DNA of 64,000 nucleotides from Bacteroidia bacterium (lineage in GTDB: Bacteria; Bacteroidota; Bacteroidia; CAIKAF01): assembly GCA_016742095.1 (NCBI GenBank), contig JACVCJ010000012.1:1-64000 (forward strand). Reading direction: 5' to 3'. Positions within the stretch are counted from its first letter, which is position 1. The number at the start of each line of letters is the position of its first letter. Positions 58,283-64,000 of the stretch are shown one piece after another. Made by a program: the position numbers and the translations under genes. A model generated the notes under the pieces. The model worked only from the letters and a program-made list of their open reading frames with translations, did not search any database and was not told where the DNA came from.

Positions 58283-59077
58283 TCAGTCGCCCTGTTTTTT
58301 CCGCAGGTCCGAGGGTCTCAGGTTCGTGAATTTGTAGAACGTATTGCTGAAACCGCCCAGGGTCTCGTAGCCCAGGGAAAATGCAATTTCGCTCAGGGTC
58401 TTGTTCGTCTTTAGTATCAGCTCGATGGCCTTTATGACCCGCAGCGTTTTAAGGTATTGCAGGAAGGAAATGTGCATATTCAGCTGAAAGAGACGCGAAA
58501 TGGAACGTTCGCTCATATTGAACTCGAGGCTTACATCGTACAGGGACAGGGGTTTGTCGATATGCTGGTCCAGGTAGCGTGTAATACGCAGGAGGCGCTC
58601 ATCTTCCGTTATGGGAAGCATCAGGGACAGGGGCTCCTGGCCGAAATCGGGCAGCAGGTCCTTTAACGTGACAAGGAATCCGAAATTCTTCTCTTTTTTA
58701 TCCACATGTCTGCCATCCCAGCGCTCGGAATAATTGATCATCTGTATCAGCAGTTCATTGGCGGGGTATATGCCCAGGCGGCTGTAAAAATCGTCTTTGA
58801 GATCATCGGCCGGATAAAAGAACAGGGAGCGCAGTACCGTGGCCGAGTGGCTCACCCGTAAAATATGAGGCACATTCCTGGGTATCCACAAATAATGGCG
58901 GGCAGGCACCACATAGGTCCTGCGGTCTATGGTCACATAGGCCACACCGCCTTCCACATAGCTCAACTGTCCTTTGGTATGCTGGTGCAGCGGTATATGC
59001 TTTTCCGATTTTTCGTGCATGACAAACACCGCATCGGGTCTTTTGTCGATCTCCGGTAATAAGGCTATTAATCCCAT
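58283..59077 (-). CDS. AraC-family transcriptional regulator
   Basis: A 264-residue regulator. The N-terminal cupin sensor (about 20-110; HIPLHQHTKGQLSYVEGGVAYVTID, LWIPRNVPHILRVS) is followed by a C-terminal double HTH (about 165-262; SLYDVSLEFNMSERSISRLFQ, TLSEIAFSLGYETLGGFSNTFYKFTNLRPSDLRK). The ATG at 59077 was chosen because 41 more open codons upstream have no domain character. It is divergent from a lipoprotein-efflux locus and probably its activator; see the repeats at 59127 and 59741. Its own -7 element overlaps a copy of the binding box. Confidence 0.93.
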   Translation of the reverse strand: MGLIALLPEIDKRPDAVFVMHEKSEKHIPLHQHTKGQLSYVEGGVAYVTIDRRTYVVPARHYLWIPRNVPHILRVSHSATVLRSLFFYPADDLKDDFYSRLGIYPANELLIQMINYSERWDGRHVDKKEKNFGFLVTLKDLLPDFGQEPLSLMLPITEDERLLRITRYLDQHIDKPLSLYDVSLEFNMSERSISRLFQLNMHISFLQYLKTLRVIKAIELILKTNKTLSEIAFSLGYETLGGFSNTFYKFTNLRPSDLRKKQGD

Positions 59078-59095: not shown

Positions 59096-59109
59096 CAAAT
59101 GTAAACAGA
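59096..59109 (-). promoter_or_regulatory. Promoter and regulator box of the AraC gene
   Basis: Minus-strand TACATTTG (plus CAAATGTA, 59096-59103) is overlapped by the box TCTGTTTACA (59109-59100), a near copy of the TCTGTTTATA in the two downstream operators. The overlap suggests autorepression. Confidence 0.6.
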
Positions 59110-59126
59110 AAAACAATACCTGTCCC

Positions 59127-59186
59127 GAATGAATAAATAGTTGTCTGTTTATATGAAAAGCAGCTTTTCCCGGCAGAATATATTTG
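59127..59186 (+). promoter_or_regulatory. Activator site 1 and -7 element of the lipoprotein gene
   Basis: A 27-bp box at 59127-59153 (ends TTGTCTGTTTATA) is 24/27 identical to that at 59741. The -7 element TATATTTG (59179-59186) starts 25 bases after the box. No TTTG -33 is seen, as at activator-dependent promoters. Confidence 0.75.
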
Positions 59187-59242
59187 CGGGGCTCCGGCAA
59201 CGCATGGCGGCGGGGCCTTTTACCTACAGAATTTTATACACT

Positions 59243-59680
59243 ATGTACAGGATAAAAAAGATAAGGTACGGACTGTTGCCGGGACTGCTGGCGGCAGCTT
59301 GTATGGCGGGAGCCTGCGGAAAGAAGAATGCCGTTTTTGTGATGAAGGCCGTTACACTCGATCTTTATATACAGAAGGATACACTGCCCGCGCAGGACCT
59401 GTTCATCCGCATCGTGGATACGGGCGATGCTTCCGTGCTGGCGCAAACGGATAAATATAAAAGCGGGCAGACGCTGCCGGCCACATTTAACCTGGAACCA
59501 CACCCGGAAATACAGCTCTACAGGCAGGACGATATATCGCTGCAGCTTTGGGGCGATTCGTCAGGTTACCTTGCTGCCCGGACCATCGACCTGAAGGAAT
59601 ATACGATACTGTTTCCCATAGATATTGAGGCGGGGAGCGATTCGGTACGTTTTTCCGTTAAGGGCTCCTGGAGAAAGTAG
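59243..59680 (+). CDS. Small lipoprotein of unknown function, AraC-linked
   Basis: A 145-residue lipoprotein (signal LLPGLLAAACMAGAC with lipobox AGAC) with a beta-rich mature domain and no recognised family. The ATG at 59243 was chosen to give a normal signal peptide; earlier in-frame ATGs at 59141, 59153 and 59204 lie in the operator or too near the predicted transcript start. Its promoter shares the AraC-type box with the TolC gene, so it is probably a partner of the export system. Confidence 0.75.
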   Translation: MYRIKKIRYGLLPGLLAAACMAGACGKKNAVFVMKAVTLDLYIQKDTLPAQDLFIRIVDTGDASVLAQTDKYKSGQTLPATFNLEPHPEIQLYRQDDISLQLWGDSSGYLAARTIDLKEYTILFPIDIEAGSDSVRFSVKGSWRK

Positions 59681-59740
59681 AATTTTTCATAGGAACAGGA
59701 CCTTATGCGCTATATGCGTATATGCATGAACGAATGGCCG

Positions 59741-59800
59741 GAATGAGTAAATTATTGTCTGTTTATACAAAATGGAGCTGGGTGTGAATGCATAAGTTTG
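59741..59800 (+). promoter_or_regulatory. Activator site 2 and -7 element of the TolC-HlyD-MFS operon
   Basis: The box at 59741-59767 repeats that at 59127. The -7 element TAAGTTTG (59793-59800) begins exactly 25 bases after it, the same spacing as at site 1. Confidence 0.75.
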
Positions 59801-59811
59801 CGCGGCAAAAA

Positions 59812-61152
59812 ATGAAGGAACGTATGCGTCAGGTTTTATGGGTGGTTCTTTTGGCCCTGTTTTGTCCGAAAGAAGTAAATGGCCGGAATGTAAATAAGAA
59901 CGCAGATACATTGCGGCTGTCCCTCGCCGGGGTATGGAAAATGGCCGAAGAACACAGCCGGGCATTAAAGATCAGCGATCAGGAAGTACGCATTAGCCAT
60001 GAGGAAGTAAAGGACCTGGTGATGGAACGTTTGCCCGAGATCGGACTTTCGGGCAGTTATGAGCGGGCCAGCAATATACCCATATACGATAAGGGCCTGC
60101 TGAAGGCGCCTTCCTATCACGAGGTGATCCGGAACCTGTACCGGCTGAGCGGCGATTTTTACTTCAATATTTACAACGGGAACAAGCTCAACCTGCACAT
60201 ACGGGAAGAAAAGACCCGGCACGAGATTGCGCTTATCCGGCGCGACGAAACGGCTTCGGGCATACGTTACCGGGCCGCCGCACTCTACCTGGAATTGCAG
60301 AAACTGTTCGTTTTCAGCGGCCTGATAACGCAGGACATTGCCGAAAAAGATAAGCAGCTGCAGGAGGTAAAGGCCTTTCGCAGGGAAGGAACGGCCCTGG
60401 GCAACGATGTACTGAAAGCCGAGTTCGATCTTTCGAACCGTAAATTACTGCAGGTGCAGATCGAGAACGATATACGCATCGCTACCCAGAAACTGAATAT
60501 CCTCATCGGCGAACCCGATGCCACGGTGCTGGTCCCCGATAAGATGGAGGATTCGCTGCAGGCGATGCCGGGCACCTACGAAGATTACCTGAAAGAGGCC
60601 TTCGAGCATTCGTTCTCCTACCATATCTCCGAACAGAAAGTACACCTGAGCGAATTGCACCTGAGACAGGTACGGGCCAATGTGCGCCCGAAAATAGGCC
60701 TCACGGGCGAGTTTTACTATATGAATCCGCAGATCTTCCTGTTCCCCTACAACCCATACTGGTATTCCCTGGGCCTGGCCGGGCTCAAGGCCTCGTTCCC
60801 GGTCTCGGCGCTGTACCATAACATTCACAAGCAAAGGGCCGCCCGCTTCGAGATCGAAAAGGAACATGAGGCGCACCGGGAAGAAGAGGACAATATACGC
60901 CAGCAGGTGAACGAGGTATACCTTACTTACCGGGAAGAACTGGTAGCCATCGAGGTGAGCCGGGTAAATGTAGCCCGGGCCGAAGAAAATGCCCGTATCA
61001 TGAAACAGAACTACTTTAACCAGACGGCCCTGATCACCGATCTTTTAGATGCCGACGTACAGGTACTGCAGGCCAGGTTCGAGCTGGCTTCAGCCAGGAT
61101 AGAGGCACAGAACCAGTATTATCTTTTACGCTACATAACCGGGAAACTTTAA
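59812..61152 (+). CDS. TolC-family outer-membrane efflux protein
   Basis: A 446-residue outer-membrane channel protein. The signal peptide is about 1-26, followed by two repeated helical-hairpin halves (for example LSLAGVWKMAEEHSRALKISDQEV near 40 and YEDYLKEAFEHSFSYHISEQKVHLSEL near 250). It ends with the typical FNQTALITDLLDADVQVLQARFELASARIEAQNQYYLLRYITGKL. It forms the exit duct for the HlyD/MFS pair just downstream. The start follows the promoter; the ATG at 59788 lies upstream of the -7 box, and 59824 is an alternative. Confidence 0.93.
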   Translation: MKERMRQVLWVVLLALFCPKEVNGRNVNKNADTLRLSLAGVWKMAEEHSRALKISDQEVRISHEEVKDLVMERLPEIGLSGSYERASNIPIYDKGLLKAPSYHEVIRNLYRLSGDFYFNIYNGNKLNLHIREEKTRHEIALIRRDETASGIRYRAAALYLELQKLFVFSGLITQDIAEKDKQLQEVKAFRREGTALGNDVLKAEFDLSNRKLLQVQIENDIRIATQKLNILIGEPDATVLVPDKMEDSLQAMPGTYEDYLKEAFEHSFSYHISEQKVHLSELHLRQVRANVRPKIGLTGEFYYMNPQIFLFPYNPYWYSLGLAGLKASFPVSALYHNIHKQRAARFEIEKEHEAHREEEDNIRQQVNEVYLTYREELVAIEVSRVNVARAEENARIMKQNYFNQTALITDLLDADVQVLQARFELASARIEAQNQYYLLRYITGKL

Positions 61153-61157
61153 GGACC

Positions 61158-62216
61158 ATGAAAGCAAAATATACGGTCACCGACAGGATCATAACCAGGA
61201 TAACGGGCTGGCTCGCCGGCGCTATCGTTGTGTGCCTGGCTGCCTGGGGCGCCTATACGGTTTGGGAATATTATCATTATGAGTATACGAATGATGCACA
61301 GGTACAGGAATATGTAAATCCTGTGATCTCGAGGGCGGGCGGCTTTATTGTGGCCGTGCGGTTCGAGGAGAACCAGTTTGTACACAGAGGCGATACCTTA
61401 CTCCTGATCGATAACCGTGAATATGTGATACAGCAGGCCCAGACCGAGGCCTCCATACAACGCGAAGAGGCCCGCCTGCAGGTGCTGGAAAGTAATGTGC
61501 ATACGCTGGAAAAGCGTGCTGCATCGGACAAGGCCCAGATCAATGTGCATAAGGCCCGTGTGTGGAAACAGGAACTGGAGAACGAACGTTACGGGAAACT
61601 GTACCGCGAGGAATCGGCCACCCTGCAGCAGCTCGAAGAGGTACAGGCCACCCTGGACGTATATAAAAATGCATACCTGTCCGCTGTGGACAGCTACGAG
61701 GCAGCCATGGCCCGGATAAACGAGACCGAGGCCGAAAAGGGTGTGGTAAAGGCAGAGATTGCCCGGTTAAAGGCCCTGCTTGACCGGCATAAACTGGATG
61801 TGAGCTATACCGTGATCACGGCTCCTTACGACGGGCGCATGGGACGGCGCATCGTAGAGGTGGGGCAGATGATCGACGCCGGCGAAGTGCTGGGCTTTAT
61901 CGTGAACAATGAGACCGACAAATGGGTAGTGGCCAACTACAAGGAAACCCAGATAGAACATATGCGCCTGGGCGACAGGGTCACTTTTACCGCCGATGCT
62001 TATCCCGGTAAAACGTTCACGGGTACCATTATATCGTTCTCGCCGGCCACCGGCTCCAGTTTTTCCCTGCTTCCGCCCGATAATTCCACCGGAAACTTTG
62101 TAAAGATCGTGCAACGGGTGCCGGTACGTATCAAAGTGGAAGGGGACCGCAGCGAGCTCGATCTGCTGAAGGTGGGCATGAACGTGAACGTGTATATTCC
62201 CAAACGGCATGGATAA
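61158..62216 (+). CDS. HlyD/EmrA-type membrane fusion protein
   Basis: A 352-residue periplasmic adaptor with one N-terminal membrane helix (about 18-38). It has the biotinyl-lipoyl-like halves (YTNDAQVQEYVNPVISRAGGFIVAV; VITAPYDGRMGRRIVEVGQMIDAGE), a coiled-coil hairpin (about 85-200) and a beta-barrel (VANYKETQIEHMRLGDRVTFTADAYPGKTFTG). It is of the EmrA class, linking the MFS pump to TolC. The MFS gene overlaps it by 8 bp. Confidence 0.95.
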   Translation: MKAKYTVTDRIITRITGWLAGAIVVCLAAWGAYTVWEYYHYEYTNDAQVQEYVNPVISRAGGFIVAVRFEENQFVHRGDTLLLIDNREYVIQQAQTEASIQREEARLQVLESNVHTLEKRAASDKAQINVHKARVWKQELENERYGKLYREESATLQQLEEVQATLDVYKNAYLSAVDSYEAAMARINETEAEKGVVKAEIARLKALLDRHKLDVSYTVITAPYDGRMGRRIVEVGQMIDAGEVLGFIVNNETDKWVVANYKETQIEHMRLGDRVTFTADAYPGKTFTGTIISFSPATGSSFSLLPPDNSTGNFVKIVQRVPVRIKVEGDRSELDLLKVGMNVNVYIPKRHG

Positions 62217-63798
62217 GCTGCTGCTCATATTCCGCTCCTGGGTGCCCGAATGGCTCGTCAGGCTCATCCTCTTCAGCCTGTTGCTGCCCAGCATTGTACT
62301 GTTCTTCCTGCCCCTGGCAAATATCAATGCGGCGGCGGGGCATTACGGCAGCGAGCCGGCCGATATCCAGTTCTCTGTGGCACTGTTCTATGCCGGTTAT
62401 GCCGGCTTTTACTCACTCGAACGCCGCTTTTTTCTCTTCCTGGCCATGAAAGAGTATTTTATCCTGCTCGTTTTCCTGAATATGGCCACGGCATTTGTCT
62501 GTTACCAGACCTGTGAACTGTATGTGTTTCTGCCGGTACGCTTTATACAGGGTATGCTGTTCTCCAGCACGGTGAACCTGTCCCTGTCGCTCATGTTCAC
62601 GCGTCTGCAAAGCGAACGGGCGCGCGAGATCAGCTTTTCGGTGTTTTTCGGCAGCCTGCTCTGTGCGTTGCCCTTTACCAATTTTGTTACCGCCGACCTC
62701 ATCGACGCCTATAATTTCAGCGTGGTCTATAAAGGCGCTTTGTTCTCCTATTTGCCGGGACTGCTTATGCTGCTTATTGCCATGAACAGCGTGCGGCTGA
62801 ATGTGAAATTCCCGCTGTCGCACCTGGACTGGCAGAGTTTTGCATTGTATACGGTCATGCTGTCGCTCATCGGTTATATAATGATCTACGGTCAGGAATA
62901 TTACTGGCTGTACGACCGGCGTATACGGTTCAGTGTGGCAGGTATGGCCGTATTGTTATGCATATACTATTTCCGGCAGAGGCATATGAAGCATCCCTAT
63001 ATCGACCTGGCTGCGCTGGGCTACCGGAATTTTACGGTAAGTATGTTCCTGTTGTTCATTATGTACATATGCCGCTTTGCCCTGGTGGCCACCAATGCCT
63101 ATTTTTCAACGGTGCTGAAGTTCGATCCCATGCACGTTTCGTACATTAACCTGTTCAATTTCGGCGGACTGGTGGCGGGGGTTATCATAAGCTGTGCCAT
63201 GCTGCTTCAGCGCAGACCTATACGTTATCTGTGGCTGCCCGGTTTTATCCTGCTGCTCCTGTTCCATGTATGGATGTTTTACCTGTTCGATATCTATGCC
63301 GATGAATTCAACTATTATATTCCTTTGTTCATACAGGGCCTGGGCGTGGGGATGATCATGGTCCCTGTGATCGTATATGCCATCTCTTCGGTGCCGCTGC
63401 ACCTGGGCAGTTCTGCTTCGGCCATAGGACTTGCCGTGCGTTACCTCGGCTTTTGTGTGAGCATAGGCATCATGAATTATTTTGAATTGTACGGGAAAAG
63501 CCGGCATTTTAACGCATTCCAGGACAAACTGACCTTCACGGACCCCGTGGTGCGGCATGCCCTGGACGTACATTCCGAAAAACTTCTGGATAAAGGAATG
63601 GTCGATTTCAGATCGTCTGAGGCAGCAGATAAATTACTGGTAAATTCGGTGAACATGCAGGACCATCTCCGCTATGCCATGGATTATTACGAGCTGATCG
63701 CCTACCTGCTGGTAGCCACGATATTGTTCATAGCCATGATGCCTTTCATGAACAGAACGGTAGTGTACCTGAGATCGCGATTCCTGTCCCCGGCCTGA
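62209..63798 (+). CDS. MFS transporter, DHA2/EmrB-like efflux pump
   Basis: A 529-residue inner-membrane protein with about 14 hydrophobic helices, the count of the DHA2 (EmrB-type) drug:H+ antiporters. Characteristic helix motifs are loose, and charged motif A is weak (EYFILLVFLNMATAFVCYQTC, FIQGMLFSSTVNLS). The family role is taken mostly from topology and the EmrA/TolC neighbours. The last 80 residues contain a large extramembrane loop (about 420-485). The substrate is unknown. Confidence 0.88.
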   Translation: MDKLLLIFRSWVPEWLVRLILFSLLLPSIVLFFLPLANINAAAGHYGSEPADIQFSVALFYAGYAGFYSLERRFFLFLAMKEYFILLVFLNMATAFVCYQTCELYVFLPVRFIQGMLFSSTVNLSLSLMFTRLQSERAREISFSVFFGSLLCALPFTNFVTADLIDAYNFSVVYKGALFSYLPGLLMLLIAMNSVRLNVKFPLSHLDWQSFALYTVMLSLIGYIMIYGQEYYWLYDRRIRFSVAGMAVLLCIYYFRQRHMKHPYIDLAALGYRNFTVSMFLLFIMYICRFALVATNAYFSTVLKFDPMHVSYINLFNFGGLVAGVIISCAMLLQRRPIRYLWLPGFILLLLFHVWMFYLFDIYADEFNYYIPLFIQGLGVGMIMVPVIVYAISSVPLHLGSSASAIGLAVRYLGFCVSIGIMNYFELYGKSRHFNAFQDKLTFTDPVVRHALDVHSEKLLDKGMVDFRSSEAADKLLVNSVNMQDHLRYAMDYYELIAYLLVATILFIAMMPFMNRTVVYLRSRFLSPA

Positions 63799-63844: not shown

Positions 63845-64000
63845 ATGGATACAAAACCACTGAAAAGACACCAGGCCCTTCAGTCCCTGAGCAGGGAGCA
63901 TCATCACGGTCTGCTGCTCTGCCGGAAGATACGGGAGGGATTCCGGCACAACATTCCGGCCGGGCGCATTAAAAAGTATGCCGACTGGTTCTGGGAGAAC
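63845..64000 (+). CDS. Hemerythrin-like domain protein, cut by right window edge
   Basis: 52 codons are visible: MDTKPLKRHQALQSLSREHH, then HGLLLCRKIREGF...KKYADWFWEN. The RHQ...LSREHHHGL and KK..WFW patterns match HHE-type hemerythrin helices that bind a di-iron centre. It starts 46 bases after the MFS gene in the same direction, so it may be the last gene of the efflux operon. The rest of the gene is outside the window. Confidence 0.75.
   Translation, partial: MDTKPLKRHQALQSLSREHHHGLLLCRKIREGFRHNIPAGRIKKYADWFWEN

Follow-up and report, generated by a model that had tools for sequence, protein, structure and literature searches.

Two closely similar operators, each set at the same distance upstream of a promoter, are present in the stretch of DNA that we analysed as a whole (64 kb, hereafter the window), next to the gene of an AraC-type regulator. 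It is quite likely that these elements form a single mechanism. Directly upstream of each promoter, the regulator would bind a tandem pair of 18-bp half-sites in a 21-bp register and, with the promoter-proximal half-site in the place of the -33 element, would probably recruit RNA polymerase to promoters having a -7 element only. A small lipoprotein gene (lip) and a tolC-emrA-emrB-hemerythrin operon would thereby be switched on together; when bound at half-site 1 of operator 1, the regulator would probably limit its own synthesis too. A point absent from the preliminary description of this DNA is that in relatives the operator is normally single for each regulator, the second copy being found here with a lipoprotein gene that appears to have been relocated.

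Operator architecture and spacing to the promoter

Box 1 (59127-59153, GAATGAATAAATAGTTGTCTGTTTATA) and box 2 (59741-59767, GAATGAGTAAATTATTGTCTGTTTATA) are identical at 24 of 27 positions, as the preliminary description had claimed. They form the only pair of 27-mers in the 64-kb window that lie at most 5 kb apart and share at least 24 positions, and two shuffles of the window gave no such pair. The coordinates bear out the distance of 25 bases between the end of the box and the -7 element at both sites, and TTTG is indeed absent from the -33 position of both promoters. A search with the 13-base core alone, two mismatches being allowed, gave 3 matches for 1.1 expected; since this is unconvincing by itself, it is the comparative evidence that settles the observation. 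Sigma-70 consensus promoters and terminators were also sought around the boxes, and nothing useful was found.

The comparison relies on 105 distinct copies of the operator, nearly all adjoining araC orthologs of other Bacteroidota. The 27-bp box turned out to be the inner core of a longer, 39-bp operator: operator 1 corresponds to 59121-59159 and operator 2 to 59735-59773, both beginning with TGKC (at 59121 and 59735). Upstream of araC orthologs, this gapless element has the consensus TTTGGCTGGAAT-A--AAAT--TTGGCAATTTA-ATAAAAT. It is present upstream of most of the orthologs examined; the exceptions are one Hymenobacter locus and a few homologs among the most distant. Each operator is made of a pair of direct half-sites, each about 18 bp long, in a 21-bp register, i.e. 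two helical turns apart, and the column autocorrelation of the relatives' profile has its maximum at a 21-bp shift. The half-sites located with this profile, all on the plus strand, are 59121-59138 (TGTCCCGAATGAATAAAT) and 59142-59159 (TGTCTGTTTATATGAAAA) in operator 1, and 59735-59752 (TGGCCGGAATGAGTAAAT) and 59756-59773 (TGTCTGTTTATACAAAAT) in operator 2; half-site 1 of operator 1 is weaker (TGTCCC).

From the end of the operator to the -7 element there are 19 bases at both window promoters, that of lip (-7 element at 59179-59186, plus strand, TATATTTG) and that of the tolC operon (59793-59800, plus strand, TAAGTTTG). The same spacing is fixed in the relatives. With a matrix trained on 46 columns, the -7 element being left out, the TTTG of the -7 element is found at column 64 in 93 of the 105 distinct operators and at column 65 in 5, with 0-2 occurrences at each of the other columns from 44 to 71; the proportion of 93/105 is not a probability, as the sequences are related and not independent, though several families are represented among the loci. 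In sigma-A promoters of Bacteroidota, the -7 box, TAnnTTTG, occupies -12 to -5 (PMC9723704). On this basis, transcription is predicted to start near 59191 and 59805, and half-site 2 would cover the -33 position, extending from about -49 to -32; in operator 1, half-site 2 ends at the would-be -33 box. Direct repeats about 21 bp apart and a promoter-proximal half-site overlapping the -35/-33 element are the features of a class II activator site, and such a geometry would be that of an activator replacing the -33 contact. Taken as a whole, the earlier proposal of an AraC-type regulator with two operators at identical spacing and an activator-type geometry lacking a -33 box is supported.

Judged from the position of the operators, the regulator probably activates rather than represses. 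It is unlikely that it acts mainly as a repressor at both operators and is released by an inducer: the operators do share space with the promoters, operator 1 also with the promoter region of araC, but a -33 box is missing from both promoters, and the 19 bp between half-site 2 and the -7 element are constant in nearly all relatives. This is the geometry of activation, whereas for a repressor some variation in spacing should be tolerable. Taken as activator sites, these elements would yield a precise rule, in terms of operator and of spacing, for AraC-type activation at the unusual -33/-7 promoters of Bacteroidota, one that could be used for target prediction in Chitinophaga, Chryseobacterium, Sphingobacterium, Elizabethkingia and others.

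Possible autoregulation

The -7 element of araC, as read from the sequence, lies on the minus strand at 59096-59103 (TACATTTG). A third, shorter box (59100-59112, minus strand, TCTGTTTACA within TTTTCTGTTTACA) had been proposed to overlap it and to mediate autorepression. The overlap on the minus strand is real, but the role of operator is unsupported: with the half-site profile this box scores at background level, ranking about 422nd in the window, and only 1 of 105 upstream regions, the window's own, has anything like it (0 of the 104 others). Although autorepression through the third box loses its ground, half-site 1 of operator 1 could plausibly mediate it. About half of the relatives have a TAnnTTTG on the minus strand, 12-23 bp upstream of the operator, a distance that puts the araC -33 region inside half-site 1. 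In the window, the araC -33 element is expected to fall within half-site 1 of operator 1, so that the bound regulator could plausibly limit its own synthesis. A different layout is seen at locus L127, where, from L127:5291 onward on the plus strand, the operator is followed by two small genes and then by araC on the same strand; this would place araC within its own regulon.

The regulator and the pump operon

The regulator gene (58283-59077, minus strand, ATG at 59077) encodes a protein of 264 aa with a cupin-like AraC_binding domain and two HTH motifs. The sensor domain matches PF02311 with E=6.8e-8, above the cut-off, and the HTH_18 domain matches PF12833 with E=2.9e-20 (72.8 bits for a cut-off of 33.6); this combination of a C-terminal HTH pair and an N-terminal cupin-type sensor is that of the AraC/XylS family. 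The AlphaFold model (pLDDT 87.7) has beta strands across residues 17-87, and its best structure matches are AraC-family proteins. Orthologs were gathered from whole genomes and from named genomes (Chitinophaga, Taibaiella, Niastella, Chryseobacterium, Sphingobacterium, Pedobacter, Elizabethkingia, Hymenobacter and MAGs); when genome contigs were searched, a single-protein query matched nothing and an alignment query succeeded. Orthologs and homologs are 33-73% identical to the regulator. In the taxonomic family to which the window belongs, 15 other genomes were examined and no close ortholog was found, yet identity reaches about 70% in another family; this patchy distribution suggests horizontal transfer.

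The first gene of the pump operon is a tolC-like outer-membrane efflux gene (59812-61152, plus strand; PF02321, with TIGR01844 below cut-off). It probably starts at ATG 59812 or 59824, because the start of the longest ORF, 59788, is upstream of the -7 element. On the same strand come the genes of an emrA-like periplasmic adaptor (61158-62216; TIGR00998, E=4.9e-65) and of an emrB-like MFS pump of the DHA2 family (62209-63798; TIGR00711, E=4.8e-20), then a hemerythrin-domain gene (63845-64000; PF01814; L037:6346-6807) that continues past the window to 64306 in contig coordinates. The operon thus comprises all three types of component, namely an adaptor, an MFS pump and an outer-membrane protein. 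Since the curated cut-offs of EmrA and EmrB are not reached (219.7 bits against 390.8 for TIGR00998, and 71.8 bits against 230.2 for TIGR00711), we name the pump EmrAB-like and do not file it as EmrAB. The tolC gene was detected in 72 of 80 named loci, nearly always adjoining araC. The divergent arrangement usually seen is broken up in one relative, G328, which has the regulator on one contig and the operator-tolC unit on another (L122, L100).

A second operator next to the lipoprotein gene

The lip gene (59243-59680, plus strand) encodes a small predicted lipoprotein of 145 aa, with the aligned lipid Cys at residue 25. It belongs to no Pfam or NCBIfam family and a sequence search against solved structures gave no match; its structure is predicted, with modest scores, to be a C2-like beta sandwich. 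In the alignment, its homologs (26-41% identity) have in common the lipobox cysteine and, at the C-terminal end, a motif around GSW. Among 80 relatives, 23 have such a homolog as a distal gene of the pump operon, always after emrB and, in some of these 23 loci, also after DUF488 and hemerythrin genes. None of the 80 has lip between araC and tolC, the place that it occupies in the window, with its own copy of the operator. As the genome contains one copy of lip, the gene would have been moved, not duplicated. The simplest history would be that lip left its place at the operon's end for one at the front and that the operator-promoter copy arose with the move. Over 76 bp, the closest known sequence to operator 1 is operator 2 (50/76), which is barely above a Chitinophaga operator (48/76), so that a local duplication is backed more by gene order than by sequence. 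The locus may thus be a natural case in which a relocated gene seems to retain its regulation through a second operator copy, and it connects an efflux operon with a family of lipoproteins that is as yet uncharacterised.

One could object that the boxes reflect a recent local DNA duplication and that the lip-side copy has no regulatory role. This is very unlikely: likeness does run modestly beyond the box, but the two regions have largely diverged outside the operator and the -7 element, which stayed in register, and the relatives' profile scores operator 1 far above background.

Extent of the regulon

With a profile built from the relatives only, the two window sites rank first and second in the 64 kb, at 37.5 and 27.9 bits, the next site being at 3.5. 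A profile of the operator plus promoter, applied to the 3.7-Mb genome, retrieved operator 2 (E=1.9e-11) and operator 1 (E=1.9e-9) and no third strong operator, the next match having E=0.0065; this profile includes both window sites, and the relatives-only matrix agrees with it within the window. A degenerate pattern likewise found, in the whole genome, only the two operators at one mismatch at most. The strong sites combining such a box with a promoter are therefore the two already noted, and neither the profile nor the pattern brought further regulon members above background in this genome. In the other genomes scanned, each copy of the regulator is mostly accompanied by a single strong operator; the window genome is unusual in having two operators for its one regulator. 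What we have here is probably a small local AraC-type regulon of a TolC-EmrA-EmrB-like pump, with putative activation. That the operator is bound by some regulator other than the adjacent AraC protein is highly improbable: binding by the latter is our inference, and relative G328 has a strong operator on a different contig than araC, but strong operators equal regulator copies in number in most genomes scanned and the half-site layout, with its 21-bp register, suits AraC proteins.

Comparison with known systems

In E. coli, the araI1-araI2 half-sites of AraC are in a 21-bp register and overlap the -35 element, and this tandem arrangement is shared with the window operators. Binding to the promoter-proximal araI2 recruits RNA polymerase to PBAD (PMC4760080). 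The window system differs from that of E. coli by its -33/-7 promoters, by the sequence of its half-sites and by its efflux rather than sugar genes, and shows no evidence of a looping site. With MarA, SoxS and Rob, the regulator shares an AraC-family HTH and a link to multidrug efflux; it also has weak NCBIfam matches to MarA, RamA and Rob. Those proteins bind as monomers to single sites of about 20 bp and have no such N-terminal cupin sensor; in contrast, the window has tandem sites and a local regulon. The pump is made of the same three component families as the EmrA-EmrB-TolC tripartite pump, gathered in one operon, but its scores are below the NCBIfam cut-offs and tolC is inside the operon. 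The regulator of EmrAB is EmrR, of the MarR type, whereas the window has a divergent AraC-type gene. In the open-access literature we found no relevant account of an operon of this kind being controlled by an AraC regulator in Bacteroidota, which does not prove that none exists.

Possible inducing signal

The residues His21, His31, His33, Gln37, His61 and His71 are invariant in the sensor domain. A RIC-like sequence is found in 19 of 80 loci, within the stretch examined, mostly from related Chryseobacterium. RIC proteins answer nitrosative stress under other regulators (PMC9268430, in the text of which AraC is unmentioned). The invariant His and Gln residues, together with RIC and oxidase neighbours, weakly suggest that the regulator is a metal-dependent stress sensor; judging from the gene neighbours, one may guess that its inducer is a nitrosative or iron-damaging stress. 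A more general scenario would be that of a widespread Bacteroidota regulator whose cupin domain senses nitric oxide or iron damage, which controls efflux as well as hemerythrin, RIC repair and oxidase genes, and of which an operator copy follows a moved gene. We consider it doubtful; if true, the operator copy travelling with the moved gene would keep the regulon together.

Two variant loci may be mentioned. In Bacteroidetes bacterium 43-93 there are, besides the operator of araC, extra operators at L138:6798-6873 and L138:7892-7967 on the plus strand. The operator before a heme-copper oxidase subunit I gene scores 40.7 bits and has a perfect -7 element, and the one before an ScdA_N-domain gene is weaker (26.3 bits), with an imperfect -7 element. 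In a MAG (L124:3794-5964), the operator, with an imperfect -7 element (GAATATTG), precedes DUF488, unknown, hemerythrin and RIC-like genes, and there is no pump at this place.
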